A stretch of 64,000 nt of DNA from Clostridia bacterium (lineage in GTDB: Bacteria > Bacillota > Clostridia > Oscillospirales > CAG-272). Positions within the stretch are counted from its first letter, which is position 1; every line of letters starts with the position of its first letter. Under the pieces are notes generated by a model that made no database searches, was not told the DNA's origin, and saw only the letters and a program-made list of their open reading frames with translations. The translations under genes and the position numbers were made by a program. The stretch spans positions 62,001-126,000 of the forward strand of contig JAFTKO010000008.1 in the NCBI GenBank assembly GCA_017453205.1, in the 5' to 3' direction. Shown here piece by piece: positions 32,516-56,076 of the stretch.

Positions 32516-32599
32516 CTCTCATCTAACAGGATTTAGCACCTTACACACCGCAGGTTGCTGTAACATCATCGTGCCTGTCACTACGTTACTCTTGATAAG
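32516..32599 (-). promoter_or_regulatory. SAM-I (S-box) riboswitch
   Basis: The minus-strand leader carries the S-box landmarks in order: CTTATCAAGAG, GACAGGCACGATGATG, CAGCAACCTG, AAGGTGCTAAATCC and the closing ATGAGAG. Position directly before metK and a following terminator confirm the assignment. The P3 arm is short. Confidence 0.93.
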
Positions 32600-32617
32600 A
32601 TATATTTTATTGCATAT

Positions 32618-39560: not shown

Positions 39561-39594
39561 AGAGCGGAAAACTTCCAAAGAAGTTTTCCGCTCT
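39561..39594 (-). terminator. Terminator at the end of the transport operon
   Basis: AGAGCGGAAAACTTC pairs with GAAGTTTTCCGCTCT; T-rich sequence follows on both strands, so it also ends the lipoprotein gene. Confidence 0.88.
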
Positions 39595-39618: not shown

Positions 39619-40803
39619 TCAGTTTGCAATACCCGAGTGCTCGATACCTTGCACCAAATATCTCTGGCAGAAAGCATACAAAACCACAAGAGGTAGAATG
39701 ATCATCAATCCGCACGTGTTCCTAATTGCCGAATAGTACAGGTCTTGACCTGCGTACTCCAGCTTTAGGGACGAGGGGATATCGACGATCTTGACCAACA
39801 GATTGACGTTGGTTGAGTTAAAGAACAGTCCGGTGTAGAAGTCATCGGTCCACTGCCAACAGAACGAGAACAGGAATACTGTGATCATCATCGGAACAGA
39901 CAGCGGGAGAATGATCTGCATGAAAGTACGGAAAGTTCCGGAACCGTCCATGTAAGCCGATTCTTCCAACTCGTCGGGGATACCGCGGAAGAACTGACGC
40001 ATCAAGAAGATGTAAAGTCCGTTCTTAAACGCAAGTCCGGTCAACGAGAGCAGGACCATCGGGAAGTAGGTGTTACACAGGTTGATACCCGCCTGAGTGA
40101 GCTCCATTTGCACCTTGTATCTCGGAGCGCCGCGGTCGGTCTCATAGTAGCCCCACTTAATCTCTTCGGGAAGAATATCCAACTTGCTGAAGAACTCCGC
40201 AACACCCTCGCCGAGCTCGGTAATGTTATGTCCGAACACTTCAATTCCGCCGCCCTTGAGGAGCTTGACGATACCGAAAATGTCGAAATAACGGAACTCC
40301 ATAAACATGGAGAGCTGCAAGGTTTGGTGAGGAACGATCATGGTCAGCATCACCAGCATAAACAGAAGATTTCTGCCCCTAAACTTGAACTTTGCAAAGC
40401 CGTAACCGATCAAGCAACAGATAAAGGTTTGAATGATGGCACAGCAGAACGAAAGCGTAAAGGTATTCATAAACGCTTCCCAATAGCCAAGCTCATTGAT
40501 GATGGCGCGGTAGATATCCAACGTAAAGTTTTTGGGGATCAATCGTACCGTTACGTCCACAAAATCCTCGGGAGCCATGAAGGAACCGGATATCTTTGTC
40601 AAGAACGGGAACAGCACGATGTAGGAAATACCCACCATCAAAACAATACGGAAGATGGCAAGAACGACCTTTGCAAGGAAATGGAAGTTCAGAAATTTTG
40701 CTTTCAGTCTGTCCTTCAGCGGAGAACGGTCAAAATCAACACGGATCTTGTTTTTGCTCTCGCGCTTGACGACCGGTTTTTTATCGATGTTTTGTGCGTT
40801 CAT
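39619..40803 (-). CDS. Carbohydrate ABC transporter permease (MalG type), second pair
   Basis: A 394-aa inner-membrane subunit with six main helices and the EAA loop DELEESAYMDGSGTFRTFMQI that contacts the ATPase. It is about 100 residues longer than usual. The surplus is a ~35-residue cytoplasmic N-terminus and a ~60-residue insertion around residues 185-245 (GGGIEVFGHNITELGEG...YETDRGAPRYKV) before the fourth helix, probably extracellular. Last gene of the seven-gene operon. Confidence 0.9.
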   Translation of the reverse strand: MNAQNIDKKPVVKRESKNKIRVDFDRSPLKDRLKAKFLNFHFLAKVVLAIFRIVLMVGISYIVLFPFLTKISGSFMAPEDFVDVTVRLIPKNFTLDIYRAIINELGYWEAFMNTFTLSFCCAIIQTFICCLIGYGFAKFKFRGRNLLFMLVMLTMIVPHQTLQLSMFMEFRYFDIFGIVKLLKGGGIEVFGHNITELGEGVAEFFSKLDILPEEIKWGYYETDRGAPRYKVQMELTQAGINLCNTYFPMVLLSLTGLAFKNGLYIFLMRQFFRGIPDELEESAYMDGSGTFRTFMQIILPLSVPMMITVFLFSFCWQWTDDFYTGLFFNSTNVNLLVKIVDIPSSLKLEYAGQDLYYSAIRNTCGLMIILPLVVLYAFCQRYLVQGIEHSGIAN

Positions 40804-40820
40804 TTCTTTACCTCCTTTTC

Positions 40821-41798
40821 TCAGTCATTTTTGCGTGAGTAGAATACAAACGCGGAAAGTACGGATGCAATCACAGCTACGATTGCAATGACGATGACAA
40901 AGTAGATCCATGCCATTGCCGAGCTGAGCACGTTTCCGTCCGCTTGCGAGTAAACGGAGGAAATGTACGACATGACCGGGTTGCTCTCGGTGGTAAAGGA
41001 GTCGATAATGGTATAAACACCGTTTACCAGGATCATCGGGCTGATCATCGGGAAAGTGATCTTCCAGAAGGTCTCCCAAGCGGTCGCACCGTCGATCTTA
41101 CACGACTCGTAAATTGCGGGCGAGATCGACTGCAAGCCGGCAAGGAAAATCAGCATCTGTACACCGGCACGGTTTACGATATCGTAAATATTGTTGATTG
41201 CTGTAGTAACGTACTCAACGATCTCGGTACCAACCTTCATGTTTGCAAAAAGCTTTTCCATGTCCATGGTGGAAATCAGCTGGTCGGCGGTGCTCTGTCC
41301 GCTACCGTCATCGATACCGCTGGAGTCCTCCATGTACTCACCCATGATGTCCGCCGCCGCAATGCTCTCCATAATACCGGTGGAAAGAATGACAGGGATA
41401 AAGAAGATTGCACGGAACGCGCCTCTGCCCGCCGCCTTTTGGTTCAGCATCACCGCCATAAAGAGCGAGAAGATCAGAATTGCGGGAATATCAAACGCCA
41501 ACTGCGACAAACCGGTAACCAGCGTTTGGACGAAATCGGGGTCTACAAACAGCGCATCGCTGTAGTTTTTCCATCCGACATACTCCAGCGCGTAACCCGC
41601 GCCGGAGCTGCCTGCGATATCGATCGTGTGAAAGCTCAACAAAATCGACTCGTAAACCATCGGTAGATAGATCAGAATAAATCCGATAATAAACGGGAGA
41701 ACAAAGAACCAACCCGCACGTGCCTTACGGCGGTCAAGGGAGGCAATCTTTTTCCTTTTCGGCTTCACAGCCGATCCCATATTTACATCTTTTGTCAT
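40821..41798 (-). CDS. Carbohydrate ABC transporter permease (MalF type), second pair
   Basis: A 325-aa inner-membrane subunit with six helices and the EAA loop PAIYESCKIDGATAWETFWKI. Between helices 3 and 4 it carries a long polar loop (about residues 145-210: MEDSSGIDDGSGQSTADQLI...MKVGTEIVEYVTT) that is absent in standard lactose/maltose permeases. The insertion mirrors the one in its partner gene 17 nt downstream, so the two could form a docking surface for the large secreted proteins. Confidence 0.9.
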   Translation of the reverse strand: MTKDVNMGSAVKPKRKKIASLDRRKARAGWFFVLPFIIGFILIYLPMVYESILLSFHTIDIAGSSGAGYALEYVGWKNYSDALFVDPDFVQTLVTGLSQLAFDIPAILIFSLFMAVMLNQKAAGRGAFRAIFFIPVILSTGIMESIAAADIMGEYMEDSSGIDDGSGQSTADQLISTMDMEKLFANMKVGTEIVEYVTTAINNIYDIVNRAGVQMLIFLAGLQSISPAIYESCKIDGATAWETFWKITFPMISPMILVNGVYTIIDSFTTESNPVMSYISSVYSQADGNVLSSAMAWIYFVIVIAIVAVIASVLSAFVFYSRKND

Positions 41799-41818
41799 GA
41801 GAAATTAACCTCCCTTTC

Positions 41819-44800
41819 TCAGTGTTCGATCACAACATAACCGCCGCTCGGGATCGTATATGTGGTAACGACACCCGTGGTGGGATCCTCGTAATCAACG
41901 ATTACGGAGAAGTTGTTGTAGTTCAGAATAAAGGACTTGACATACGTCTTTGCATGGGTGGTATCGTCACGGTCGCCGTAGGTCACAACAACGATCTGAT
42001 TGTTGTCCACACGGTGCTTGTCGTACACCACATCCGCATCGGTATCGCCCTCGGTATCCTCAGTCTCGGTATCCAACTGACCTGCGGCAATAATACCTTC
42101 TGCCGTAAAGATGGCATTGTTATCTGTCAAAACCTGCAAAAGCAACTGATAATCCTCGTAGCTCTCGCTCTCCGTGTCATTCATCAAGGCAAGCAACTCT
42201 TCGAGTGCGGTCATTGCCTTAGTAACCACATAGTCGTCAGAGCCCTCGGTCACCAAAGAGCTATTTTTTTGCAACTCTTGTTCGGCGCTTGCAAATTCCT
42301 CTTGAGCGGACTTCTTATAAGCATCGATCTTTGCCATCATCTTTGTCTTGGTATCGGCATCGATATCCGAAGCCTCGACCACAGCCTTTGCATTGTCAAG
42401 CTCGGCGATCAGCGCATCGCCCTCTGCTTTTAGGGCGACCAACTGATTGTATTGCTTGAGAATACCCGAAGCCAACGACCGAATGGTATTGAGCACGGTT
42501 TGCAGATCCTTGACCGCATCTTTGGGCTCCAAGGCGTCAAAATTCTCACCATGATCATCCATATGAGGATACAAAGCCTCCACCGCATCGGTCAATTCTT
42601 GAGACAGGAAAGTAATCTGCAAAATCAAGTTCGCATAGTCGCCCGACTCATATCCGTCGGCATCAACCGCGTAAATATCCTTGTTGATCTCTTCCATTTC
42701 TGCAAGGAACTTTTTGACATTTGCGGTTGCGTTCTCGGCAGTCTGCCAAGCGTTTGCAACGGACAGGACCTTTTCGGTCTCGTTATCCTTTTGCTTCTGC
42801 TCTTCCGCTGCTGCGGCTTGCTCAAGCTTTGCCATCAGCTCTTCCTCGAGCTCATCACGGTCAAGAACACGCTGACCGACAAGGAACTGATGATTAACAA
42901 TCACCTTGGTCTGAACGTCCTTGAGAAGTGCATTCAGCTCATTGTAATAGGAGACCACATCCTTTTCCCAAATATCGTAACGAACCGAGTAATACTGGCT
43001 GAGCAGCGGATCCTCTTTGAGCTCGTTGGTATTTTGATAGGAAAGAATGAAATACAGTCCCGCACCGTTTTCGAGTGCACGGAGAATCGCGTAGTTGGTG
43101 TCACCCTCCTCGTTAAACGCCGTACCGGCAAACTGAATATAGCCATGCAGTACCGCGCCGATGAAAGGCACCGATGCGCTGGACTTGATGTAACGGCTGG
43201 AGTCGAGGTCCACATTGATCATGTGGTCAAGATACCCCCAGCTGTAAGCATTGGCACCCTCGGACATCAAGCTGTAGCCTGCTGCCTGAAGATCTTGGAA
43301 TGCTTGAACGGTGTAATCCTTACCGTCCTCGCGGTTGTAAGGATCATCCTCATCAAAGTCGGAGTTAAGGGTGGTTCCCAAAGAACCGACGGACATGGTG
43401 GTAAGTCCATACTTCTCGTAGTTCTTGAGCAACTTTTCATAGAATTTGCTGTAACGCGAGGGCGAAATTGCAAGCTGGTAGAAGCTGACATATGCCTGTT
43501 GCGTTGCACTGTACTGTCTCAAGGAAGAATAACGGTTATCAATGGTCTTGATGGCATCCTTCTTGAGGCTGGTGCTGTCAAAGAGCGTGTTGACATTGAT
43601 GTATGCAAAATCAAAGTCGGGGTAAAGTCCGAGATGCTCTTCTCCGCCGGCATTGACATCCGCCGCTTGAGAGATCAAGGTCTCAAAGCCGTCGGAGCCG
43701 CCAACAGCCTTTTCCCACTTGAGCTTTGCGGGAACAGTGGAATACATACCGCCGTTTGCAAAACCGGTGAGCTTAAAGTTGATGTTCTTGACACCTTGAT
43801 CGGAAAGTGCGTCATACATTTGATAGACGTTTTCAAAGGTGGTCAAGGGCGTCATGACATCCACGGGAATGGTCATGATCTGCTGAGTCGTCTCCAAAGC
43901 ACCGAACACCTCGAGATACAGAGGAATGTTATCCTCGGTGGTCTCCTCGGTCAGCTTGGTCAGCTTGCCTTCGTCGATCAGATAATCGCGGTAAGCCTCT
44001 GCCATGCCGAGCCATGTGGTGTCGTAGTAGGTATAAGAAGCGTTCTCGGCTTGCTCTGCCTTACCCACATTCTCGTCGGTCAGCATTTGGTAATGGATGG
44101 TGATGTTACCCGTATACTTACGCTCGGATACAACCGTCCAAGTAGAGCTGCTGGTGACCGAGATCGAGTCGGAAATGTCGTAGCTGTCCTTGGGCTTGGG
44201 GTTAAAGTAGTTCATCATGGTGTTGTAATCACTCAGAGAACCTGCGTGGTAGGTAGCAATCTCCGCCAAAGATTCGCCCGACTCGATCACAGCCACATAG
44301 CCGCGCTCATAGATCTCGGCGTTCTTTTCGATCTCGGAAAGCGAGTAGGTCAAGGTTCCTTTCAGATCCTCGGTCACATACTTTTCAATCGCCTCGAGAT
44401 CCATCACCGTGTTGGAAACACGAAATTCATACGGAGTCAAGTCTCCCGTCATAGTCTTACCGTCGGTTCCCTTTTGAATCTCCATGGTTTCCTTATCGAG
44501 AACCAACTCGGAGGTGAAGTTGACAGTGTAGATCTTTTCGGTTGCGACCGTACCGTAAACGGGATAACGGATGGTCTTTTGATAGGTACCGGTGATCTGG
44601 TGGTATGCGTAGTCAATACCGTAGACCTTGCCGCGCACCGTGGTGGTGGACTTGGTGTTCAGCTGTTCAAAATCGAACAGAGAGCCCGAGCCGTCGGGAT
44701 AGAAGTTATAGCCCGCGTACTTATTTCCTTCCGCATCGGTCAGACCCGCATTTTTGCTGTTACCCGCACCCATGTAAGGCAGGATGCTGATGTTTTCCAG

Positions 44801-45745
44801 CGTGTAGGTAGACATATCGTAACGCAAGCCGTTGCAAGGCAGTGTGACGTTGAGTCCGCTTGCGTCCAAGGAGTACTCGAGAGCCATCTTAAACAGCGGA
44901 TATTGCTCGTCGGTCGCCTCGTATCCGGTCTCGTCATGGTCGGCATCCATCTGCTCGAAGGTATAATCCTCGCAATAAGCCTTGATGTAAGCCTCGCACC
45001 AGTTGATCTCAACCGAGGATGCGTCGGTCGCAAATACCCAAATGTCCATTTCCTCACAAATGGGGTATGCTTGGAGCAGTTGCTCCTTTGCCTTTTTGGA
45101 GGTCTTGTCGGCAAGTCTCTGATCCTTATAGTAGGTCATGAACTTGTTATAGAAGAACTCCTGAATCTCGCCTTTCTCCACGGCTTCCTTCAAGGGTGTC
45201 TGGATATACTTGACAAAGCTCGTGTCGGAAATCCATCTCGGAACCAGCTTTCTGGATTCCTCGCGTCCGATGGTATACTCCACACGGACACCGTTTTTGA
45301 TGTTGAGGACCGTGATCTGCTGACGCATTGCGGCCTCTTCAAAGCTGTACAGGTACTTGGTGGTACCGTTGTCCACGTACTGAACCACCAACTGAGAAAG
45401 AATCTGCTTTTTGGTGGAGTCGGAGCCCGTGGAAGAAGCAACGTCGTAAGGATTGGAGAACAGGATGTTGTTGGTTGCGATCTCGCGGGTTGCGACCTCG
45501 CCGCTGACAGCATCAACGTAAAGCTCAAAGCCGTCTCTGGTCAGCATCAGCTTCATGCTTTCCAATTTATCCTCGGGTGTTCTGTACACCGTGCCGACAT
45601 AGGTGCTTTGGATCACTTCGTCTGCATTCTTCTCATCTTTACTTGTATCCGTGGTTGTTTCCGCGGCGGATACGCCGATCACCATGGATCCGAGCAAAAG
45701 AATGACAGCCAAGAGTGTCGAAAGTATTCTGTTGTGTAATTTCAT
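41819..45745 (-). CDS. Giant secreted DUF5696-family protein
   Basis: A 1308-aa exported protein with a type I signal peptide (cleavage near VIGVSAAE, residue 28), no lipobox, no sortase motif and no C-terminal membrane helix. Residues ~40-590 are beta-rich domains. Residues ~600-960 look like a TIM barrel with repeated strand signatures (NINFKLTGFANGG, LGLYPDFDFAYINV, LMSEGANAYSWGYLDH) reminiscent of large glycoside hydrolases. Residues ~960-1240 form long helical coiled coils, and a short beta domain ends the protein. DUF5696 proteins tend to occur with sugar ABC transporters in Clostridia; no substrate is known. Confidence 0.85.
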   Translation of the reverse strand: MKLHNRILSTLLAVILLLGSMVIGVSAAETTTDTSKDEKNADEVIQSTYVGTVYRTPEDKLESMKLMLTRDGFELYVDAVSGEVATREIATNNILFSNPYDVASSTGSDSTKKQILSQLVVQYVDNGTTKYLYSFEEAAMRQQITVLNIKNGVRVEYTIGREESRKLVPRWISDTSFVKYIQTPLKEAVEKGEIQEFFYNKFMTYYKDQRLADKTSKKAKEQLLQAYPICEEMDIWVFATDASSVEINWCEAYIKAYCEDYTFEQMDADHDETGYEATDEQYPLFKMALEYSLDASGLNVTLPCNGLRYDMSTYTLENISILPYMGAGNSKNAGLTDAEGNKYAGYNFYPDGSGSLFDFEQLNTKSTTTVRGKVYGIDYAYHQITGTYQKTIRYPVYGTVATEKIYTVNFTSELVLDKETMEIQKGTDGKTMTGDLTPYEFRVSNTVMDLEAIEKYVTEDLKGTLTYSLSEIEKNAEIYERGYVAVIESGESLAEIATYHAGSLSDYNTMMNYFNPKPKDSYDISDSISVTSSSTWTVVSERKYTGNITIHYQMLTDENVGKAEQAENASYTYYDTTWLGMAEAYRDYLIDEGKLTKLTEETTEDNIPLYLEVFGALETTQQIMTIPVDVMTPLTTFENVYQMYDALSDQGVKNINFKLTGFANGGMYSTVPAKLKWEKAVGGSDGFETLISQAADVNAGGEEHLGLYPDFDFAYINVNTLFDSTSLKKDAIKTIDNRYSSLRQYSATQQAYVSFYQLAISPSRYSKFYEKLLKNYEKYGLTTMSVGSLGTTLNSDFDEDDPYNREDGKDYTVQAFQDLQAAGYSLMSEGANAYSWGYLDHMINVDLDSSRYIKSSASVPFIGAVLHGYIQFAGTAFNEEGDTNYAILRALENGAGLYFILSYQNTNELKEDPLLSQYYSVRYDIWEKDVVSYYNELNALLKDVQTKVIVNHQFLVGQRVLDRDELEEELMAKLEQAAAAEEQKQKDNETEKVLSVANAWQTAENATANVKKFLAEMEEINKDIYAVDADGYESGDYANLILQITFLSQELTDAVEALYPHMDDHGENFDALEPKDAVKDLQTVLNTIRSLASGILKQYNQLVALKAEGDALIAELDNAKAVVEASDIDADTKTKMMAKIDAYKKSAQEEFASAEQELQKNSSLVTEGSDDYVVTKAMTALEELLALMNDTESESYEDYQLLLQVLTDNNAIFTAEGIIAAGQLDTETEDTEGDTDADVVYDKHRVDNNQIVVVTYGDRDDTTHAKTYVKSFILNYNNFSVIVDYEDPTTGVVTTYTIPSGGYVVIEH

Positions 45746-45766
45746 TTTCTAACCTCCCGTCTGTCG

Positions 45767-47905
45767 TTAAGCCCGATACTGTAGCTCGGTGACGATGTTG
45801 GTAACAAGGCTGACCAGCTTCGACAGCAGCATGCTGAACAAAAGCACGATAAATACGATACAAGCCATTGCAACCACCGTTCCGAGAATGGTGATCAAGT
45901 TTTTGGACATGGAATAATCGTGTGTTACCATGGTTCCGAAGAACAACAGCAATCCTACCCAAATAAAGGAGAGCGTACCGATAAAGGAGATGATCCCCGC
46001 CTCGGTGGTGGTAACGTAGTTGGAGAAGAAGGTCATGGGAATGGTCAAGATGATCAAGGGCAGCAAGCTGTAAGAGGTAGCAATGAAGATATCCTTAAAG
46101 CTTCCCTCACCCTCAAACAGGGTGGTCAAGCACCAGTTTGCAAGAACAAACAGGAACAGGGGAACCAAAACCGAAATGCACTGTACCCAAATGGTGGAGT
46201 AAGTACCCGTGGGGTTCATGACATAACCTTGACCCACGCTCTGATAGAAGAACGCAACAATGGTCAGTGCAATGAACACGAGAGACGCACGAACCGATCC
46301 GCGATGCTCGTGTTTAAGGTCGTAGAAACCGTCAAACGGATGGAACATCACATAGAAGCCGTACAACAGCTCCTGTCCAAAGGTCTTGCGTGCCTTACCG
46401 TCGGTAGCAACGCGCTTGTTGACCTTTGCCGCCCAACCGAAGAACTTGACTACAAGAACGATCAAGGCGATGATAATGACCAAGATTAAAATAAACCAAG
46501 TGGACATCCAATCCTTACGGACTTCCTTGTAGGAGTTCGACCAGTTTGCGGTATCGTAAGCCGTCTCGTAGTATTCGAGAGACTCTTTAAACTCACCGCT
46601 GCGGTAGAGTGCATTACCGATACCGACGTAAGCGGCGTCGAAGTTGGAGTTTCTCTGCAGGACCGCCTCCCAACAGGAGATCGCGTAATTGTAATCGAGC
46701 GAGTTCTCGGCGGCGATCGCCTCAATCAGCATGTCGCCGTACTCGGTGCGCTCGTAAACGATGATTGTGTTGCTTCCCTTATCCAAAACCAACATCGTGT
46801 CGTTCTGATAGGTGACAGCCTCGATATTGGAAATACTACCCAGCATCGAACCCTTGTCACCAAAAGCAAACAACAGGTTACCGTTAAAGTCGTAGGTGTA
46901 AAGCTTGTTACGCTTGGAGTCGATAATGGTCCAAGTCTTTTCGGGACCGACCGCGACGTCCGTGACCGTGGAGGGTCCTGTATAGGTCGACTCGGTACTG
47001 GTAAAGTCGATCTCACCGGCAGGCGGCCAGAAGCCGTTACGTCTCATGATCTCATCTCCCGCGGGGTTGAGAAGCTTAACGGGCATATAGGTACCGGCCT
47101 TGGTTTTACCTCTGATCGCACTGCTCACGGAGTTTTGATCGATCGAGGAAGTGGTTACATAGATAAAACCTTCATCGGTAATGGTAATGTTATTGTACTC
47201 GGTGGAAACGTACTGCTGAGAAAGCTTTTGCTGTTCCTCGGTTTGGAAACGTCTCCACATGATCTCCCATGCGCTGATGGTGACCGCCTGTGCACCGACA
47301 AATCCGACAAACTGACCGTCGGCATCCATGACGATAATACCTTGGTAGGTGGTGGAGGATACGACATAAATTCTGCCGTACTGGTCGATCGCCATTGCAA
47401 CGGGCTTGTAAACGTCATCGCTGTCAAACAGTTGGCTCTCCGGGGCATCAATGATCGCCTCAAAGTTACCTTTCAAGTCAAAACGAACAATACGGTTCTT
47501 GTCAGTGTCACACACCCAAATCGCCTCATCGGTAACAAACACGCCCTGCGGTGCCGCAAGCGAGTCCTCGGTTCCCTGTGTGTTGATAAACGAAGAAATC
47601 TCGAACTCGTACTCATAGTAACGGCTCAAAACCACGATACGGTTGTTGCCGGTGTCGGCAATGTAAACCTTTTCGTTTTTGTCGGTGACCATGTCGCCGG
47701 GGTTGCTGAAGTTGAGCTCCATGCCCATTTGCGTGTAATCCACGGATTTATTCGCGGAGTACGCGTCGGGAGAATAGAGCGCTTCGCCGTTGATCGAGTA
47801 GGTGTAGGTCTGATATGCCGAGGAAGCACCCGCTCCCACGGTCATTGCCGATGCGATCATCACAAGGGACAATACAAGCAACAAAACAGATGTTATTCTT
47901 TTCAT
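45767..47905 (-). CDS. NHL beta-propeller / TPR / YIP1 membrane protein
   Basis: A 712-aa fusion. Signal peptide (1-28), then an extracellular NHL-type propeller (about 55-400, blades such as VYIADTGNNRIVVLSRYYEYE and IWVCDTDKNRIVRFDLKGN), a TPR-like helical pair (SLDYNYAISCWEAVLQRNSN), one membrane helix (about 475-495) and a C-terminal five-helix YIP1 domain (510-712). This would span the membrane with a sensory or scaffold propeller outside. It lies between the two permease pairs and the DUF5696 gene. YIP1 proteins have no known role in bacterial transport. Confidence 0.85.
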   Translation of the reverse strand: MKRITSVLLLVLSLVMIASAMTVGAGASSAYQTYTYSINGEALYSPDAYSANKSVDYTQMGMELNFSNPGDMVTDKNEKVYIADTGNNRIVVLSRYYEYEFEISSFINTQGTEDSLAAPQGVFVTDEAIWVCDTDKNRIVRFDLKGNFEAIIDAPESQLFDSDDVYKPVAMAIDQYGRIYVVSSTTYQGIIVMDADGQFVGFVGAQAVTISAWEIMWRRFQTEEQQKLSQQYVSTEYNNITITDEGFIYVTTSSIDQNSVSSAIRGKTKAGTYMPVKLLNPAGDEIMRRNGFWPPAGEIDFTSTESTYTGPSTVTDVAVGPEKTWTIIDSKRNKLYTYDFNGNLLFAFGDKGSMLGSISNIEAVTYQNDTMLVLDKGSNTIIVYERTEYGDMLIEAIAAENSLDYNYAISCWEAVLQRNSNFDAAYVGIGNALYRSGEFKESLEYYETAYDTANWSNSYKEVRKDWMSTWFILILVIIIALIVLVVKFFGWAAKVNKRVATDGKARKTFGQELLYGFYVMFHPFDGFYDLKHEHRGSVRASLVFIALTIVAFFYQSVGQGYVMNPTGTYSTIWVQCISVLVPLFLFVLANWCLTTLFEGEGSFKDIFIATSYSLLPLIILTIPMTFFSNYVTTTEAGIISFIGTLSFIWVGLLLFFGTMVTHDYSMSKNLITILGTVVAMACIVFIVLLFSMLLSKLVSLVTNIVTELQYRA

Positions 47906-47915
47906 ATTGTCCTCC

Positions 47916-48788
47916 TTAATCTTTCATACCGCTCGAACCCATCGTCTCGATGATGTTCGACTGTGCAATTACGAATACCAAAATCGGCACTGCCATCATC
48001 AACACGGTAGCCGCCGCGGACGCACCTTGACGCTTGATACCGCCGGCGGTGATCTGCGTGATCGCGTAGTTGATGGATTTGAGCTGTTCGGAATAGATGT
48101 AGGTAGAAGCACCCGCGTTCCACAGGTTTTGGAACGAATAGATGATCAAGGTCAGCCACGCGGGCTTAACCATGGGCATCGCGATGGTCCAGTAGGTACG
48201 CAACTCGCTGGCACCGTCCAAACGGGCACTCTCCAGAACCGTATCCGGAACCGAGCTGTCCATAAACTGCTTCATCAAGTACAAACCAAGCGTTGAACCC
48301 CAAGCGGGAACAACGATTGCCCAGTAGGTATCGATCATGTGTAATGCACTCATGATGATAAAGCTGGTGATCGCGGTCACGGTGGAGTGGAACATGAGCG
48401 AGGTCTGAATGGTCTTAAAGATCGCTTTGCCGCCGGGGAATTTGATCTTTGCCAAGGCATATGCAGCCATGGACGCCAAGAACAGGTGTCCGAATGTACC
48501 GCAAACCGAGGTAAAGATGGTGTTGAAAATGTAACGTGAGAACGGAACCCAAGAGTCGTTCATCAAGGTAAACAGGTCTCTGTAGTTACCGAGATGCGGA
48601 CGGCTTACAAGGAATTTCGGGGGGTACATCCACAACTCATCCAAGGGCTTGAGCGATTGGCTGATGACGTAAACCATCGGCAGGACCATGAAAATTCCCA
48701 ACAGGGTAAGCATTACTGTGATACCGGCGTCACCGCCCGCGGAACGTGACAGGACGACCTTATGTTTTCTTGTTCTTAACTTTGCCAT
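47916..48788 (-). CDS. Carbohydrate ABC transporter permease (MalG type), first pair
   Basis: A 290-aa, six-helix permease of normal length with the EAA loop DTVLESARLDGASELRTYWTI. It is one nucleotide beyond the partner gene's stop region (spacing 1 nt), so both are translated in tight coupling. Confidence 0.93.
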   Translation of the reverse strand: MAKLRTRKHKVVLSRSAGGDAGITVMLTLLGIFMVLPMVYVISQSLKPLDELWMYPPKFLVSRPHLGNYRDLFTLMNDSWVPFSRYIFNTIFTSVCGTFGHLFLASMAAYALAKIKFPGGKAIFKTIQTSLMFHSTVTAITSFIIMSALHMIDTYWAIVVPAWGSTLGLYLMKQFMDSSVPDTVLESARLDGASELRTYWTIAMPMVKPAWLTLIIYSFQNLWNAGASTYIYSEQLKSINYAITQITAGGIKRQGASAAATVLMMAVPILVFVIAQSNIIETMGSSGMKD

Positions 48789-48789
48789 A

Positions 48790-49737
48790 TCACGAACCTA
48801 CCTTTGAGAGTACTTTCTTGACGACCGCGTTCGCGCCTACCATGATTAAGAACAGCACGGTCGCAATTGCCGAAGAATAACCGATTTCATAACGCTGTCC
48901 GCCATAGTCCTCGAGGTGGTGCATGATGGTATGCGCCGCATAGTCGACCGAGGGGAAGCCTGCCAATGCGGTAACAACGCCGCCAAAGCCGAACGAGCTG
49001 GTGATTGCCATGATCGCACCGAACATCAACTGCGGCTTCATGCTGGGCAGTGTGATGTACCAAAGTTCCTGCCAACGGTTCTTGACACCGTCCACAGCAC
49101 CCGCCTCGTAAAGTGAGCGGTCAACGCCCTGCAAACCTGCGATAAACGACAGGAACGAGGTACCGAGCGAGGTCCAAAGGGCAACAACGATACACAGCGG
49201 CATAACGGTGTCGGCGTCCTTGAACCACTTGTGCGGCTCGGTGAGGATTCCGATCTCCATCAAGGTCGCGTTTGCCCAACCCTTGGAGTCAGCCGAGAAC
49301 AGCGTACCCCAAATCAAGTACACCTGACCGGAAATGGACGGTGCATAGAAGATGAGGGTAACGATGGAACGGATACGGGGGGAAAGCTCATTGATGAACC
49401 ACGCGACCAGGAACGACATCAGATATGATGCCGGTCCCACGATGGCTGCGAAGATAAGGGTGTTGGTACATGCGGTCAAGAATACATCATCTGCGAAGAA
49501 CAGGTTGATGTAGTTCTCAATCCAAACAATGCTCGGCATTTGGAGCATGTTAAAGTCGGTAAAGCTGATGAGCACCGAAAGCAAGACAGGCACAACGGTA
49601 AACAGGGTGAACACGATCAGATAAGGTGCAATCAGAAGATATGCGACCCAGTTGCGTTTCATTTCCTTGCGGATCCATTGTCCGTATGTCAAATCTTTTC
49701 TGGCAACAGCTTTATATTCTGCTGTTTTAGCTGACAT
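48790..49737 (-). CDS. Carbohydrate ABC transporter permease (MalF type), first pair
   Basis: A 315-aa, six-helix permease with the EAA loop RSLYEAGAVDGVKNRWQELWYI. N-terminal cytoplasmic residues are polar and basic. Second gene of the operon, directly after the giant solute-binding protein. Confidence 0.93.
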   Translation of the reverse strand: MSAKTAEYKAVARKDLTYGQWIRKEMKRNWVAYLLIAPYLIVFTLFTVVPVLLSVLISFTDFNMLQMPSIVWIENYINLFFADDVFLTACTNTLIFAAIVGPASYLMSFLVAWFINELSPRIRSIVTLIFYAPSISGQVYLIWGTLFSADSKGWANATLMEIGILTEPHKWFKDADTVMPLCIVVALWTSLGTSFLSFIAGLQGVDRSLYEAGAVDGVKNRWQELWYITLPSMKPQLMFGAIMAITSSFGFGGVVTALAGFPSVDYAAHTIMHHLEDYGGQRYEIGYSSAIATVLFLIMVGANAVVKKVLSKVGS

Positions 49738-49780
49738 TTGCTCTTTCTCCTTACTAAAGTTTTTTCATGAAGCGGAACGT

Positions 49781-52700
49781 TTATTGATAAGAAGCAAGCG
49801 CATCCGCGGCGTCTCTGAGACATTCGCCGATGAAGTAGACCAGTTGTTGCTCGTTCAAGCTACTGATCCTGTAGCCGCCGTCCTCGGACTCGGCGGTCTG
49901 CTTGCCAACGTTCTTATAGTACGTAGGCATTTGAACGACCTTGCCGTTGACCTTGACGACGTCCATCATCTGTCCGTCCCAATCGTTCGCAAGAATTGCT
50001 TCAAACAGGGATGCCGCTTCATCAAGTTGAGCAATCTTCTGATTTGCAACAGCATACTTGGCGGCTTCGATCGCCTCGGCATACTTGGTGTTGCCTTCGG
50101 CAATGTACTTTTCGGTCAAATTATCGATGGCATTCATCGCTTGGTTCATTCTCTTGGAAGCCAACGTCTGACCGATCTCAAGCGTTTCGAGGTTGAACTC
50201 CTCGCGCTTACGGGTAATTTCTTTATTGATCGTATTGATATAGCTGAGAATCTCGGTGGTAGGATCGGCGTCATCGTTCAAAGCTGAGAGGAACGCAAAG
50301 TTGGTGTGACGGTCGATAAAGTAACTACCGGGATAGTTCGGGATTGCCGCAAGGTTTTCAAACTGCTTCGACACCTCGGAGTATTCATCGCGTGTCCAAG
50401 GCATGGTCTCAAGCGCGACGCGGTTTGCGGTCGGGTGCTTTGCGGAATCACCGATAATAGCGACCATTTCGTTTGCATACTCGGTCTGCGCTTCGGCTCC
50501 GGTGTACCACTTCATAAAGGTCCAAGCAGAAGCCTCGTCCTCAATTCCGGAAATCATAACAACTGCGTTGATGGTGGAGTCAGCGGTGTTATTAATGATA
50601 AGATTACCGTTTTCATCATACAATTTGGCGCCATTTTCATCGGTTTGAACGGTACCGGGAACCGGAACGAACGCCCATTTACCGTCGATCTCGGTTGCGA
50701 ACACCTTGAGCTGGTTGTAAAGACCCGTGTAGTCGGCAAGGATGATCGGCATTTCACCGGTTCTGAAACGGTTTGCCGCATCGTACTGGTAGGGGAAGGA
50801 GTGCTGTGTAAACATGTTACACATCTTCTCAAACGCCGCCAATCCCTTTACAGAGTCGAGGTTGATTCTCATACCGTCATCGGCGTAAAGGTCACCGTTG
50901 GACTGATACAGGAACACCTTGTAGTTGGTGGTCACACCGATCTCCATGTTGTTCGATTCCAGCTTGGACTGTGCGGTATAGATCTCATCCCAAGTCTTGG
51001 GAATTTCAATCTCCAGCTCCGCAAGAATGTCAAGGCGGACAAACATCATTTGGAAGGTCTGTGTCTCCGGCAAGCCGTAGGTATGAATGTCACCGTCGGC
51101 ATCCGCAATCTCGAGCTGAAGCATTGCCGCTCTGGTAAAGCACTCTTTAACAATCTCGTTAAAGCCGTCCATTTCCTCCACGTTTGTCAATGCTCCGCGG
51201 ATCGCGTAGTTGATAACGGTCGCGTCTGCAAGTCCCAAGTAAACATCGGGTCCCATGCCTGCAAGGATGGAGGGCAACAGGGTACTACCGGTAACCAGCT
51301 TTAGGTTAACAGCGATATTGTTTTCGGGAGTAAACTTGTTGGTGGTAAGGTTACGAATAACCTGAGATTGGTCACGACCGTATGCAAGCCATACGTCAAT
51401 GGTCGCGTCGGTGGTTCCGTCATCCATAGCGCCCATGCTGTTGTAGTCACGTACAAAGCTTTGGAAGAAGCTGGAGAACTCGTGCAACAGGGTTTTCCAG
51501 AAGCCTGCGGCGGCCTTGGGCAGCTCTGCGGAGGCGGGTTGAATCATGATGTAATCAAGCTGCAAGGGCTGTGTCTTTGCGTCGGTAAGGAAAGTACCGA
51601 GGTTACCGATGTAGCTCTTGAGGTTATCGAGGTTCTTTGCGATTTCATCCTCGTCATAAGCAAGCTTACGCAACAGGTTGAGCAACTGGTCACAGGTTCC
51701 CGTATAGGAGGATGCGGTATCCGCAGTCTCCTTGAGGAAGTTGGAAATCCCCTCCAAGCTATTCGCCTGTTTCATCATATCGATCAGCGTGTCGGGGAGC
51801 AAACGCGAGAAGCTGTAATCGCGGTAATCGTCGGGATCGGTACCCGTCAGCTTAATGATACCAAGGTAGTCATCATTGAGCGCATCCAACGTTTCCTGGA
51901 GCTGTTGAACGACCTCGCTCATGGAGCCCAAGGTGACCTCCCAGTGCAGGGTGTAGGTCACGCCCTCACGGAAGTAGATCTGATAGGTATCGGCAACGCC
52001 ATCGCCGTTTGCATCAGCGCCTGTGGAAAGACCGGTGACCTGCCATTTGGTTCCGTAATCATAACGGAGCTCGGCAGCCTCGGAGAACGGGATCCCGTTG
52101 TAGTAGCCCGCAGTGGTGCCGAAAGCCGCTTGATATGCCTCTTCGCTCTCATAATTTGTATAGATGGAAAGAGAACGGCTGACGTACATACCATCGAGGT
52201 AGCTCTGCTTGTAACGGCTGTAGATCTCGTACATACCCGAGCCGCTGACACTGAACTGGTATTCCACCCACTGACCCGCAGTGGACCACTTTTCGGTACC
52301 GATGGTGTTGAGCACCGTGCGGGTGGTATCGGCGGGAGAGGTGAGAGGAGAAGTACGATCCTCTACGGGGTAAACACCGTTGGTGGAGGTATTGGAGGCA
52401 AGCTCCGCCTCAATCTTTACGATGCCGGTACCCTCGTTGAGATTTCCTACATTATTATTAATGGAAGCAAGATAGTCGGCGTAAGACTTGGTCTGCGTGT
52501 AGGGCTTAATGATGATCGCCGCCAACGCCATAGACTCGTTTACACTGTCCATCGTCAAGGAGATCTTGCCGGTTTCCGCATCGGGCTCGAGAACGAAACC
52601 GAAGTCATCGGCATAGAACCCGCCGCTATCACGCATGGTGTAGGACGTCCACTCGGGCGTCTGTACCATGGTGGGACGCAGCTCGTTGGTGTCTGCGTCT

Positions 52701-53548
52701 GTGGTGAAGAAGCGCAGCTCGTATTTTTCAATAAATTCATAGATCGCCTGTGTGATCACAGTGGGGCGCTCTACCGTCACGCTCTTACCGTCCTCGGCAG
52801 CCGTGCAGGTCAAGCCCGCGGCAACAGCCTCACCGATGATCGTGTCAAGCACATCGCCCTTGCCCAACGTGTAAACCGCGGTAAGGCCCGAGGTTCCGTC
52901 AGCCTTGAAGGACGACCAGATCTTTGCCAGCGTCAGCGCACGCGCCTCGGAAAAGGGTGCCTCGCCGTTGATGTAGAACTCACGTTCCACAGACGCGGAC
53001 TTACCGACGATCGGATAATACAGCAACTCAATGCTGTACAGTCCCTTTTCAATGTTTTGCGCGGAAAGGTCGAGCGTCCATGTCACAGAACCGACGCTGG
53101 GCGTGTAGAGTGCCCATTTGCCGCCGATCTCTGCGGGATAGACCAAGTCATCCTTTTTATAACCCGCCGCGACAGCCTCATCGACAGACTTGTAAGTAGC
53201 AAGGACCTCATAGTTGCCGTCCTCGTCCTTTTTGGTCTTGTCGTAAACCGTCATTGTCCACGTGCCGTCTACAAGCTCAATGGTGTTTCCGTCTTCATCC
53301 ACGAAAACCCAATTGGCAGAGGCGTCAAAGGTCTTGGCTTCTGTCTTGGTGGGATTTTGGAAATACGCGGAGTTTCTTTCGATATACTCCTGATACGAGA
53401 TGGTATTCAACTCGTCGACGTAATCCTCAATCGACTTGTCCGTGACTGCGGAGCCGCTGTCAGCACTGACCGCAACCGCCGCGGTACTCACAAGAAACAT
53501 GAACGCCAAAGCGATACAAGCAAATCTTGTGAACTTCGTTTTTCTCAT
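49781..53548 (-). CDS. Giant secreted extracellular solute-binding protein
   Basis: A 1255-aa protein; ordinary family members are 400-550 aa. The signal peptide MRKTKFTRFACIALAFMFLV... is type I (AVAVSA, near residue 29); there is no lipobox. Residues ~75-350 are beta-sandwich-like repeats, ~375-545 resemble a carbohydrate-binding module (KIEAELASNTS, WSTAGQWVEYQFSV), ~545-665 are helical, and ~715-1140 form the type 1 sugar-binding domain (SILAGMGPDVYLGLADATV, TWDEIYTAQSKLE, TAVVMISG-like NAVVMISGIED). The last ~110 residues are helical. The start at 53548 follows a strong AGGAGG. First gene of the operon. Confidence 0.88.
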   Translation of the reverse strand: MRKTKFTRFACIALAFMFLVSTAAVAVSADSGSAVTDKSIEDYVDELNTISYQEYIERNSAYFQNPTKTEAKTFDASANWVFVDEDGNTIELVDGTWTMTVYDKTKKDEDGNYEVLATYKSVDEAVAAGYKKDDLVYPAEIGGKWALYTPSVGSVTWTLDLSAQNIEKGLYSIELLYYPIVGKSASVEREFYINGEAPFSEARALTLAKIWSSFKADGTSGLTAVYTLGKGDVLDTIIGEAVAAGLTCTAAEDGKSVTVERPTVITQAIYEFIEKYELRFFTTDADTNELRPTMVQTPEWTSYTMRDSGGFYADDFGFVLEPDAETGKISLTMDSVNESMALAAIIIKPYTQTKSYADYLASINNNVGNLNEGTGIVKIEAELASNTSTNGVYPVEDRTSPLTSPADTTRTVLNTIGTEKWSTAGQWVEYQFSVSGSGMYEIYSRYKQSYLDGMYVSRSLSIYTNYESEEAYQAAFGTTAGYYNGIPFSEAAELRYDYGTKWQVTGLSTGADANGDGVADTYQIYFREGVTYTLHWEVTLGSMSEVVQQLQETLDALNDDYLGIIKLTGTDPDDYRDYSFSRLLPDTLIDMMKQANSLEGISNFLKETADTASSYTGTCDQLLNLLRKLAYDEDEIAKNLDNLKSYIGNLGTFLTDAKTQPLQLDYIMIQPASAELPKAAAGFWKTLLHEFSSFFQSFVRDYNSMGAMDDGTTDATIDVWLAYGRDQSQVIRNLTTNKFTPENNIAVNLKLVTGSTLLPSILAGMGPDVYLGLADATVINYAIRGALTNVEEMDGFNEIVKECFTRAAMLQLEIADADGDIHTYGLPETQTFQMMFVRLDILAELEIEIPKTWDEIYTAQSKLESNNMEIGVTTNYKVFLYQSNGDLYADDGMRINLDSVKGLAAFEKMCNMFTQHSFPYQYDAANRFRTGEMPIILADYTGLYNQLKVFATEIDGKWAFVPVPGTVQTDENGAKLYDENGNLIINNTADSTINAVVMISGIEDEASAWTFMKWYTGAEAQTEYANEMVAIIGDSAKHPTANRVALETMPWTRDEYSEVSKQFENLAAIPNYPGSYFIDRHTNFAFLSALNDDADPTTEILSYINTINKEITRKREEFNLETLEIGQTLASKRMNQAMNAIDNLTEKYIAEGNTKYAEAIEAAKYAVANQKIAQLDEAASLFEAILANDWDGQMMDVVKVNGKVVQMPTYYKNVGKQTAESEDGGYRISSLNEQQLVYFIGECLRDAADALASYQ

Positions 53549-54442: not shown

Positions 54443-55360
54443 TCACTTTAAAAATCCGTTGATGATCTGTTCTTCGGCTTCTTTTTCGGTCAGTCCCAGC
54501 GTCATAAGCTTGATGAGCTGTTCGCCTGCGATCTTACCGATGGCGGCTTCGTGGATCAGCGAGGCATCGACATGATTTGCTTCGATCTGCGGAAGTGCCG
54601 TGACTTGAGCATCGTCCATGATGATGGCATCGCACTCGGTGTGTCCGGAACAGCGGTTGTTTCCGCGCACATGCGAAAGAAAAGTCTGACGGCTGTTATC
54701 CTTTGCCACCGAACGCGAGACCACATGCGTGCCGCAATCCTCACCGTCGAGGTCGACCGTAAAATCGGTCTCGGCAAATTGGTTGCCGTGCGTCATGATC
54801 TTTTCGCGCACGATCAGCGTGGCTCCCGACGCAAGTTTTGCAGACGTGTTGCGCTTTGTCGAGTCCACACCCTTGATCTGTGCGGTCTCCATTTCCATAT
54901 AGCTATCCTCGCCGAGGATCGCCACCGTGGTGGGGTTCATCACATTTTTGCCGCTTCCGTCACCTTCGCCGTAGTGCTTTTCAATGTATTTGACTTTCGC
55001 TCCTTTGGCAAGATAGAACGAATGAATACCGCTGTGCTCACTCTCCCCGGAGCCGCTGTTGTGAATGCCGCACCCCGCCACAATGGTCACGTCGCAGTCC
55101 TCGCCGATGTGAAAATCATTGTAGACCAGCTCCTTGAGTCCTGTTTGCGAAAGCAAAACGGGAATGTGCAGGCTCTCGTTCTTCGTACCGGGCTTGACAT
55201 AAATATCAATGCCGGATTTGTCGGTTTTCTTAACAATGGTGATATTTTCGGAGTCATTTTTGCCGTACAGAGCACCATTGACGCGCAGAGAATATGCGCC
55301 CTGCGGTACCTCGTGGATGCCTGCGATCTGCTCGAGAAGATTTTTTTGTATCGCGTCCAT
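54443..55360 (-). CDS. SufB/SufD-family Fe-S scaffold (minimal SmsB type)
   Basis: A 305-aa beta-helix protein, shorter than SufB (~470) or SufD (~420). The family core runs IVAGCGIHNSGSGESEHSG and HVVSRSVAKDNSRQTFLSHV, with conserved Cys/His/Glu residues near the C-terminus (CSGHTECDAIIMDD, HEAAIGKIAGEQ). It assembles Fe-S clusters with the ATPase encoded immediately upstream; the start shares one base with that gene's stop. No sufSU, sufE or sufA is nearby, matching the two-gene system of strict anaerobes. Confidence 0.9.
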   Translation of the reverse strand: MDAIQKNLLEQIAGIHEVPQGAYSLRVNGALYGKNDSENITIVKKTDKSGIDIYVKPGTKNESLHIPVLLSQTGLKELVYNDFHIGEDCDVTIVAGCGIHNSGSGESEHSGIHSFYLAKGAKVKYIEKHYGEGDGSGKNVMNPTTVAILGEDSYMEMETAQIKGVDSTKRNTSAKLASGATLIVREKIMTHGNQFAETDFTVDLDGEDCGTHVVSRSVAKDNSRQTFLSHVRGNNRCSGHTECDAIIMDDAQVTALPQIEANHVDASLIHEAAIGKIAGEQLIKLMTLGLTEKEAEEQIINGFLK

Positions 55361-56076
55361 CAGTCACATACCTCCCTGGTAAAACGGCACCCCGACTGCA
55401 CGTTGAGCAGCTCGGGCAAAATCTCGTTCTTGGCACCGTAAGCCGTCACCTTACCGCCCGAAACGACAATAATTTTGTCGGCAATGTCAAGGATGCGTTC
55501 CTGGTGCGAAATGATGAGAATGGTGCCGTGGGTGCGCTCGTACATACTGCGGAACACTTGAATGAGGTTGTGAAAGCTCCACAGGTCAATCCCCGCCTCG
55601 GGCTCGTCGAACACCGACAGCTTGGTGCCGCGCGCATTGATCATAGCAATCTCAATTCTCTTCAGCTCGCCGCCCGAAAGAGAGCCGTCCACCTCGCGGT
55701 TGACATAATCCTTGGCACAAAGACCGACCTCGGCAAGGTAGGCGCACGCCTCGCCGACCGAGATCTTTTTCCCCGCCGCCATAGAGATCAGATCCTTGAC
55801 CGTGATCCCCTTAAAGCGCACGGGCTGTTGGAACGCAAAGCTGACACCGCGGCGTGCGCGATCGGTAATGGAAAGATCGGTGATGTCCTCGCCGTCGAGA
55901 TAGATTTTCCCCGACGTGGGCGTATAAATACCCGCAATCAGCTTTGCCATGGTGGATTTTCCGCTTCCGTTCGGGCCCGTGACCGCCACAAAGCGGTCAT
56001 CTATTTGCAGACTGATGTCGGAAAGGATCTCCTTCCCTTCCTCCGTCCGATAGGTTACGTTTTTAAATTCTAACAT
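55360..56076 (-). CDS. sufC: SufC-type ABC ATPase
   Basis: A 238-aa cytoplasmic ABC ATPase. Walker A GPNGSGKST, Q-loop FAFQQPV, signature LSGGELKR, Walker B LSVFDEPEAGID and switch histidine SHQE identify SufC. It powers the scaffold protein of the downstream gene. The ribosome site AAAAGGAC precedes the ATG. Confidence 0.93.
   Translation of the reverse strand: MLEFKNVTYRTEEGKEILSDISLQIDDRFVAVTGPNGSGKSTMAKLIAGIYTPTSGKIYLDGEDITDLSITDRARRGVSFAFQQPVRFKGITVKDLISMAAGKKISVGEACAYLAEVGLCAKDYVNREVDGSLSGGELKRIEIAMINARGTKLSVFDEPEAGIDLWSFHNLIQVFRSMYERTHGTILIISHQERILDIADKIIVVSGGKVTAYGAKNEILPELLNVQSGCRFTREVCD

Follow-up and report, generated by a model that had tools for sequence, protein, structure and literature searches.

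A conserved seven-gene transport island of Clostridia with two permease pairs as a possible shared import hub for orphan solute-binding proteins

Introduction

Why should one bacterial operon encode two pairs of permeases together with two giant proteins and no ATPase, and which ligands would such a set of proteins serve? The question is raised by an island of seven open reading frames (ORFs) at positions 39619–53548 of a 64,000-nt stretch from the genome of an uncultured Clostridia bacterium of the gut (contig JAFTKO010000008.1, assembly GCA_017453205.1), the whole of which is called the window here. In the direction of transcription, the island encodes a giant solute-binding protein (SBP), the permeases p1a and p1b, an NHL-TPR-Yip1 protein (YIP), a DUF5696 protein (DUF) and the permeases p2a and p2b. 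An earlier note on this DNA regarded the island as a dedicated surface complex that captures, possibly trims and imports a complex glycan through two translocators. In this work, we provide evidence that the seven genes belong together as a genuine unit found in many genomes, and we propose that it may serve many orphan SBPs as a shared import hub. The genomes compared are labelled by G-numbers and the genomic stretches taken around matches by L-numbers; G000 is the window's own genome, which is 73% complete. No publication on this operon or on DUF5696 was found in the open-licence literature searched.

Results

Conservation of the seven-gene island

The layout described in the earlier note was confirmed: all seven ORFs lie on the minus strand and are separated, in the order of transcription, by gaps of 43, 1, 10, 21, 20 and 17 nt. 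Domain scans found no ATPase, regulator or hydrolase among the seven, and a simple pattern applied to the first 45 residues found no lipobox in the seven window proteins, which again agrees with that description.

Three sets of loci were compared, all anchored on DUF5696 (a Butyrivibrio record was reached via p1b), so that permease pairs occurring alone lie outside their reach. In the order-level set, DUF5696 matches were present in 41 of 60 relatives and 15 of 26 genera, and 38 stretches were examined. By BLAST families, all seven genes stood together in 35 of these, 34 times in the order of the window (SBP-p1a-p1b-YIP-DUF-p2a-p2b) and once with p2a-p2b upstream of the SBP gene (L068). The exceptions are two stretches that end at contig ends (L056, L064) and one from G051 (L069), where PF18952, the Pfam family of DUF5696, has matches and the island is absent. 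The named set was obtained by scanning the contigs of named genomes: 219 stretches matched, 200 were confirmed, and the best 80 of the 200 were used. These loci are titled Clostridia, Clostridiales, Eubacteriales, Oscillospiraceae or Ruminococcus metagenome-assembled genomes, mostly from the animal gut; 15 of them are the same DUF stretch as an order-level locus, so that the two sets overlap. All seven genes followed in order in 68 of the 80, some with an end gene cut and L147 with YIP split, while the remaining 12 reach a contig end, L112 having in addition a broken DUF gene. In the phylum set, 43 of 398 genomes had PF18952 matches above the cut-off. Eighteen of them provided the 20 stretches examined, 17 of which contained all seven genes.

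The results clearly show that the island is a real, widespread unit. Within these DUF5696-anchored loci, both permease pairs accompany both giants in 35/38, 68/80 and 17/20 cases rather than standing apart from them in most relatives, and each such locus has two pairs in place of the single pair of an ordinary CUT1 importer. This supports the earlier suggestion that the genes form a single, conserved unit for import in which there are two translocators. Weak PF18952 matches in other genomes were considered as extra islands and rejected: 5 of 11 stretches had a DUF-profile ORF, and four of these ORFs belonged to DUF6259 and the fifth (L202) to GH129.

The arrangement of the genes also bears on the view that two independent ordinary importers share an operon, pair 1 being served by the giant SBP, and pair 2 by DUF5696/NHL or a conventional SBP. 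The module YIP-DUF-p2a-p2b precedes SBP-p1a-p1b in L187, L190, L191 and also in L193, which is cut; L194 is rearranged, and in L183 and L184 the former module occurs without a convincing SBP-p1a-p1b module in the stretch. Such swapping would suit separable importers, but almost every complete locus examined has the two modules side by side, and we consider two independent importers unlikely.

Orphan solute-binding proteins and the number of permeases

A conventional SBP ORF (420–601 aa) was present in the same stretch as the island in 17 of the 20 phylum stretches, some of these matches being weak (L182, 27 bits). The corresponding figure was 5 of 117 for the order-level and named stretches (L064, L065, L129, L130, L138), and no conventional SBP was found beside the island in the 20 stretches from the genus and family. 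A profile built from 14 island-adjacent conventional SBPs (A6) gave 27 matches in G000, 59 in G021, 20 in G030, 7 in G020, 6 in G007, 5 in G033 and 4 each in G009 and G014; outside the genus, 8 were found in G046, 12 in G351 and 38 in G362. On contigs C29 and C37 of G000 there are two SBP match pairs whose scores are identical and whose spacing is mirrored. They probably reflect a region duplicated in the assembly, which leaves about 25 distinct places of the 27. One of them lies in a 994-aa frame and one in a 3365-aa minus-strand frame with an SBP-type domain (G000:C14:134300-135637; L227, 17283–19901, cut).

PF00528 permease matches number 13 in G000, G007, G009, G022 and G035, 12 in G014, G020, G011 and G005, 11 in G033, 9 in G030, 15 in G021 and 29 in G046. 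The 13 of G000 comprise a PstC-PstA fusion (2), an amino-acid permease (1), PotB and PotC (2), two Opp-type pairs (4, OppB typed) and the four of the island. Apart from these last four, this 73%-complete genome seems to have no sugar-type PF00528 permease, the search being confined to PF00528 and not extending to CUT2, PTS and other carriers. In G030 and G021, the part that was typed consists of Pst, amino-acid, Pot, Opp, and NitT/TauT-like or PhnU2-like permeases. Such exclusiveness of the island does not hold throughout the genus, because G007 and G020 have a further PF00528 pair beside a second OB_MalK gene (G007:C18:216953-219150, G020:C42:24501-26756), apparently another sugar-type importer. 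OB_MalK matches were found in 11 of 13 genomes, the exceptions being G000 and G030.

The orphan SBPs of G000 were surveyed in 20 stretches that hold 24 of the 27 A6 places. There, 26 ORFs match a rebuilt SBP profile, and 23 of these are single SBPs of 475–624 aa; a lipobox-like Cys is present in 21 of the 23, and the A6 scores are 82–185 bits for 22 and 17 bits for one. The island-type permease families gave no match in these 20 stretches, which are also free of the G000 PF00528 places except where L227 takes in the end of the PstCA gene; SBPs encoded without permeases are thus a feature of G000. Judged by profile matches, the family is divergent, because Pfam SBP_bac_1 alone finds 9 places in G000.

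For 19 of the 23 orphans, a same-strand ORF of at least 250 aa lies within 80 nt downstream, mostly with a signal-like start as judged by eye. Pfam matches among 20 neighbour ORFs, not all of them adjacent, were to GHL6/fucosidase-like, laminin-G, F5/8 C, GLUG, M26 N-terminal, GDSL, GDPD, and exo-endo-phosphatase or metallo-beta-lactamase-like domains. The GDPD-domain protein adjoins an orphan SBP (L232, 8356–10284), a hint that some orphans may handle glycerophosphodiesters, not glycans. Orphan-type SBPs also form tandem arrays, five at G007:C1:28000-40000 (L263) and four at G020:C4:1500-10500 (L264). In a midpoint-rooted FastTree tree of 73 SBPs, from which 6 of the 29 island-adjacent ORFs were left out, one side contains the 23 G000 orphans, ten SBPs from G007, G020 and G021, and 17 of the 23 island-adjacent SBPs. 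The other side contains 13 generic SBPs of G362 and G351, four SBPs of G046 and six island-adjacent ones.

These data make it doubtful that the island is dedicated to one glycan, as had been suggested, since about 25 orphan-SBP places occur in G000 and no other sugar-type PF00528 permease was recognised there. On the basis of counts and homology, a two-translocator CUT1-type complex serving the orphan SBPs as a shared import hub would account for the SBP/permease imbalance of G000 better than a dedicated importer, and we put its chances at about even. With a dedicated importer, a single complex glycan would enter through both translocators; the orphan SBPs would instead be engaged in sensing, surface adhesion or transporters that escaped the search. 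This would fit the genus members that carry the island and very few A6-type SBPs (one each in G005 and G022, two in G011), as well as the islands of G046 and Butyrivibrio, which are accompanied by hydrolases or SBPs of their own. It leaves the permease-less SBP places of G000 unexplained, and likewise the 59 of G021 with its 15 PF00528 matches; we therefore regard a dedicated importer as possible but rather doubtful. The same low counts in G005, G022 and G011 exclude the notion that many orphan SBPs always accompany the island.

The two permease pairs

All four small proteins match PF00528 above the cut-off, and an EAA loop is present in each: EAGAVDG in the UgpA-like p1a (315 aa, 48790–49737), ESARLDG in the UgpE-like p1b (290 aa, 47916–48788), ESCKIDG in p2a (325 aa, 40821–41798) and ESAYMDG in p2b (394 aa, 39619–40803), all on the minus strand, as are the island features below. 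In the phylum loci, each of the four family profiles gives a far better score with the corresponding permease than with the others. A tree over the phylum sample grouped p2a, p1b and p2b into single clades (support of 0.73, 0.99 and 0.27, respectively), and p1a did not form one clade when rooted with a Pot outgroup. A recent duplication of pair 1 as the origin of pair 2 was rejected on the strength of the three single clades, the support for p2b being low.

Large loops had been noted earlier in both permeases of pair 2. This holds for p2b, where pairwise alignment reveals an insertion of about 67–68 aa (residues 168–235, 40099–40302), but not for p2a, where the insertion is small, about 18 aa, and dispersed. 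Judging from the position of the EAA loop, the p2b loop would be exposed on the extracytoplasmic face.

The giant SBP

The first gene (49781–53548) encodes a protein of 1255 aa, counted from an ATG, with an upstream TTG as an alternative start of the same frame; its N terminus is signal-peptide-like and has no lipobox. Although hmmscan assigned it to none of the Pfam families, its earlier identification as an SBP stands: PF01547 (SBP_bac_1) reached 48.9 bits at this gene in the genome search (cut-off 26), and residues 712–968 (50645–51415) form a CUT1-type SBP domain core that matches Lin1841 by PDB sequence search (9e-10) and by profile (3e-17). Lin1841 binds beta-1,2-glucooligosaccharides. 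For the N-terminal part of the window protein, no useful PDB match was obtained, and weak ferrochelatase rows were put down to chance. A carbohydrate-binding module was found in one of five giants scanned (L195), with CBM_35 above and CBM_6 below the cut-off.

The DUF5696 protein

The second giant (1308 aa, 41819–45745) matches DUF5696 (PF18952) with E 3e-132 and 442 bits against a cut-off of 25.6. In seven loci (L096, L097, L100, L103, L105, L106, L117), the DUF5696 ORFs are 1921–1998 aa long, far above the length of the window protein. When the single window protein was searched against PDB sequences, nothing was returned except three weak matches of the coiled-coil kind, all to 14-3-3 chains. 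A profile of 26 DUF5696 members (A1) matched GH129-type structures (8rzg/8rzk and 5opq, 3e-9; 5wzq/5wzn, 4e-7), and hhalign of the DUF5696 profile against four GH129 proteins (A5) gave a probability of 93% (E 3e-7). The GH129 profile was built on only four proteins because true GH129 is scarce in the genomes sampled (1 of 398 phylum genomes and 3 of 295 order genomes). DUF5696 is thus related to GH129 at the level of profiles.

In the alignment, the Asp of the GH129 motif FFDV stands opposite Ser785 of the window protein (43391–43393). PMC5698469 gives D435 as the catalytic residue of NagBb, with D486 as its counterpart in DagB. From the motif and spacing, we equate the FFDV Asp with D435, which would make Ser785 the counterpart of the nucleophile. 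A homologue alignment of 137 rows comprises 122 distinct ones, of which 104 have Ser in this column and 2 have Asp. The most distant 38 rows, counted separately, have Ser 21, Ala 6 and Asp 2 times. The column of window Glu829 corresponds to E478, which we take to be the acid/base Glu of NagBb, and has D/E in 77 of 122 distinct and 12 of 38 distant rows. Asp796 and Glu892 are conserved in 113 and 118 of the 122 distinct rows.

The earlier note had allowed for trimming of the glycan, and an active DUF5696 glycosidase at the membrane would be in line with the similarity to GH129 and GH129-like enzymes at the profile level and with the acidic residues retained in the acid-base column; the conservation of Asp796 and Glu892 could hint at another chemistry that these residues might serve. 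The nucleophile Asp is replaced almost throughout, distant rows included, and the acid-base column is less well kept in the latter. Because of this replacement, DUF5696 is read as a probable pseudo-glycosidase, i.e., a glycan-binding barrel rather than a trimming enzyme, so that trimming, one of the functions envisaged earlier, looks improbable. The proposed relationship differs from that to an ordinary GH129/GH101-like hydrolase (NagBb 5WZN, DagB 5OPQ, 8RZG) in that DUF5696 shares distant profile homology with these enzymes, but has no conserved nucleophile Asp and is encoded among transporter genes.

An insertion of residues 957–1247 (42005–42877) ahead of the last strands is missing or very short in aligned relatives outside the family. 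The N terminus of DUF5696 is lipobox-like in some relatives (e.g., L061, L065 and L066) and elsewhere only a hydrophobic segment, and these starts place the protein on the outer face.

The NHL-TPR-Yip1 protein

The remaining island protein (712 aa, 45767–47905) combines an NHL propeller and a TPR region with one transmembrane segment (464–496) and a Yip1 domain (residues 518–688, 45842–46354); NHL and Yip1 match Pfam above the cut-off and TPR below it. In several relatives, NHL and Yip1 are encoded separately, by one gene for an NHL protein whose start is signal-like and whose membrane segment is C-terminal, and by another for a Yip1 protein of roughly 200–240 aa. This split-gene architecture places the NHL propeller outside the cell. 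According to PMC4887032, the Yip1 protein YknW of Bacillus modulates how an ABC complex is assembled, and we draw a parallel in suggesting a similar role for Yip1 of the island. The likeness to YknWXYZ consists in a Yip1-family membrane protein acting with an ABC transporter, but YknWXYZ is a peptide exporter of another ABC class, unlike the island.

Since Yip1 and NHL-TPR subunits are unusual in importers and the operon has no ATPase, the island might be thought of as an envelope-building or sensing machine that reuses importer parts. The EAA loops retained in all four permeases, the SBP domain, and glycosidase neighbours in G046 and Butyrivibrio point the other way and make this very improbable.

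The ATPase

A shared MsmK-type ATPase encoded elsewhere in the genome had been proposed; such a protein was found in most of the relatives searched but not in the 73%-complete G000 or the 97%-complete G030. The UgpC-type ATPase of G014, which is above the cut-off of the UgpC model, has full-length matches (66–96% identity) in 16 of 23 genomes, 15 of them at least 79% identical and that in G042 66%. Only fragments were found in G002 and G035, and no close match in G000, G018, G029, G030 and G043. Among the 15 searched genomes with a DUF5696 match, the ATPase is full-length in 10, fragmentary in 2 and not found in 3. It is not tied to the island, because six of the eight genomes without a DUF5696 match also carry it. 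In the genus contexts L163–L167, the ATPase gene adjoins a gene for a protein of about 720 aa, and no PF00528 match lies nearby. Genetic evidence from Anaerocellum bescii, as given in PMC12838199, indicates that the oligosaccharide ABC importers of this bacterium all depend on a single MsmK for their energy.

Genes beside the island in other genomes

G046 has six DUF5696 copies, five of them with all seven genes and one cut. A neighbour of a glycosidase family is above the cut-off in four of the six stretches (GH78-type; GH127; GH2/mannosidase-like; GH106 and GH31); the fifth has only GH14 below the cut-off, and the single neighbour scanned in the sixth is a sugar kinase/nucleotidyltransferase. 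On plasmid pNP243 of the cultured rumen bacterium Butyrivibrio fibrisolvens D1, an adjoining GH43 gene is followed by genes for a giant SBP, two permeases, NHL, YIP1, DUF5696, two permeases and two conventional SBPs. Upstream, the opposite strand encodes a histidine kinase and a response regulator. Thus, the hydrolases expected of a Gram-positive polysaccharide utilization locus occur beside the islands of G046 and Butyrivibrio, and the hydrolases and regulator of such a locus are absent from the island in the window.

Promoter, terminator and neighbours in the window

A single promoter and a single terminator had been assigned to the island, and both sites were recovered. The strong promoter-like site TTGACA-17-TATGAT (53817–53789, minus strand) has 11 of 12 consensus positions and TG ahead of the –10 element; the bidirectional terminator-like site with a 15-pair stem is at 39561–39594. 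Terminator-like sites in the region are not in excess (18 vs. 15.9 ± 5.1 expected from shuffles). Promoter-like sites on both strands number 26 vs. 14.8 ± 3.1 in shuffles, and internal promoters within the island are possible because of this excess. Elsewhere in the window, a SAM riboswitch (S box) lies at 32516–32601 on the minus strand, and a SufB/SufC-like pair, judged from the sequence by eye, at 54443–56076 upstream of the island.

Discussion

Two permease pairs and two giant proteins travel together as one seven-gene unit. From its conservation, gene content and order, from homologies and from the counts of SBPs and permeases, we infer a complex that would work as follows. The pairs p1a/p1b and p2a/p2b would form two heterodimeric translocators of one surface-exposed CUT1-type import complex, and the giant SBP and the GH129-derived, glycan-binding DUF5696, which has probably lost catalysis, would both be large receptors on its extracytoplasmic side. 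The NHL-TPR scaffold, anchored in the membrane and joined to the Yip1 membrane domain, may help to assemble the complex. About two dozen orphan SBPs, mostly lipoproteins encoded beside another large protein, would bind various ligands and deliver them by docking on the hub, whose translocators would let these ligands pass; a shared MsmK/UgpC-type ATPase encoded elsewhere would supply the power.

Several observations weigh against such a hub. Island-carrying genus members with only one or two A6 matches have been mentioned, and A6 matches are also numerous (38) in G362, which does not belong to the genus and has SBPs of the ordinary kind; the sole contrast between SBPs and permeases that was measured is G046 (8 A6 matches, 29 PF00528). 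Most orphans are seen by A6 only, since the places that SBP_bac_1 recognises number just 9 (G000), 8 (G021) and 2 (G030), and of two orphan SBPs scanned with Pfam, L226 matched SBP_bac_8 above the cut-off and L230 nothing. Among the 20 ORFs near orphans, one had glycosidase matches and eight had no match at all. A lipobox-like Cys occurs in the island-adjacent SBP in only 10 of the 17 phylum stretches. The split of the SBP tree has a support of only about 0.83–0.86, and the island-adjacent SBPs of L065, L182, L189, L192, L194 and one of L213 fall on the generic side along with the four of G046. Finally, only 73% of G000 is at hand, and a close MsmK match was missing from five of the 23 genomes, among them G030, which is nearly complete.

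Compared with known systems, the island resembles CUT1 importers of the MalFGK2/UgpAEC type with a shared MsmK/UgpC in its four EAA-bearing PF00528 permeases, the SBP_bac_1-type domain, an operon without an ATPase and an orphan UgpC-family ATPase in most relatives searched. It differs from them in having two permease pairs, a 1255-aa SBP without a lipobox, and the extra NHL-TPR-Yip1 and DUF5696 subunits. There are precedents for several SBPs per importer: the ABC importer Cbc of Pseudomonas reportedly uses several, and Thomas (2010, 'Homes for the orphans') and Chen (2010) reportedly offer precedents for several SBPs per permease. Athe_0595-0598 of A. bescii is an importer with two SBPs (PMC12838199). 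The likeness to these multi-SBP importers is that SBPs outnumber permeases; here, unlike there, about 25 SBP places would fall to one sugar-type permease set within a seven-gene unit, a link drawn from sequence comparison.

In a broader form, the proposal would be that of hub-and-spoke uptake in Gram-positive gut bacteria, where a seven-subunit platform with a pseudo-glycosidase receptor serves dozens of orphan SBPs, each with a secreted capture or cutting partner, and replaces one importer per substrate. We put this forward tentatively, with somewhat less than even confidence. SusCD is an outer-membrane strategy of glycan uptake. If the proposal is true, a group of Bacillota would import many glycans via one shared composite machine, with a logic like that of SusCD but built from ABC parts. 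DUF5696 and the bacterial NHL/Yip1 pair would acquire a function, and dozens of orphan SBPs would be explained. The prediction of transporter specificity from genomes would change as well, since SBPs are now usually assigned a permease each of their own.

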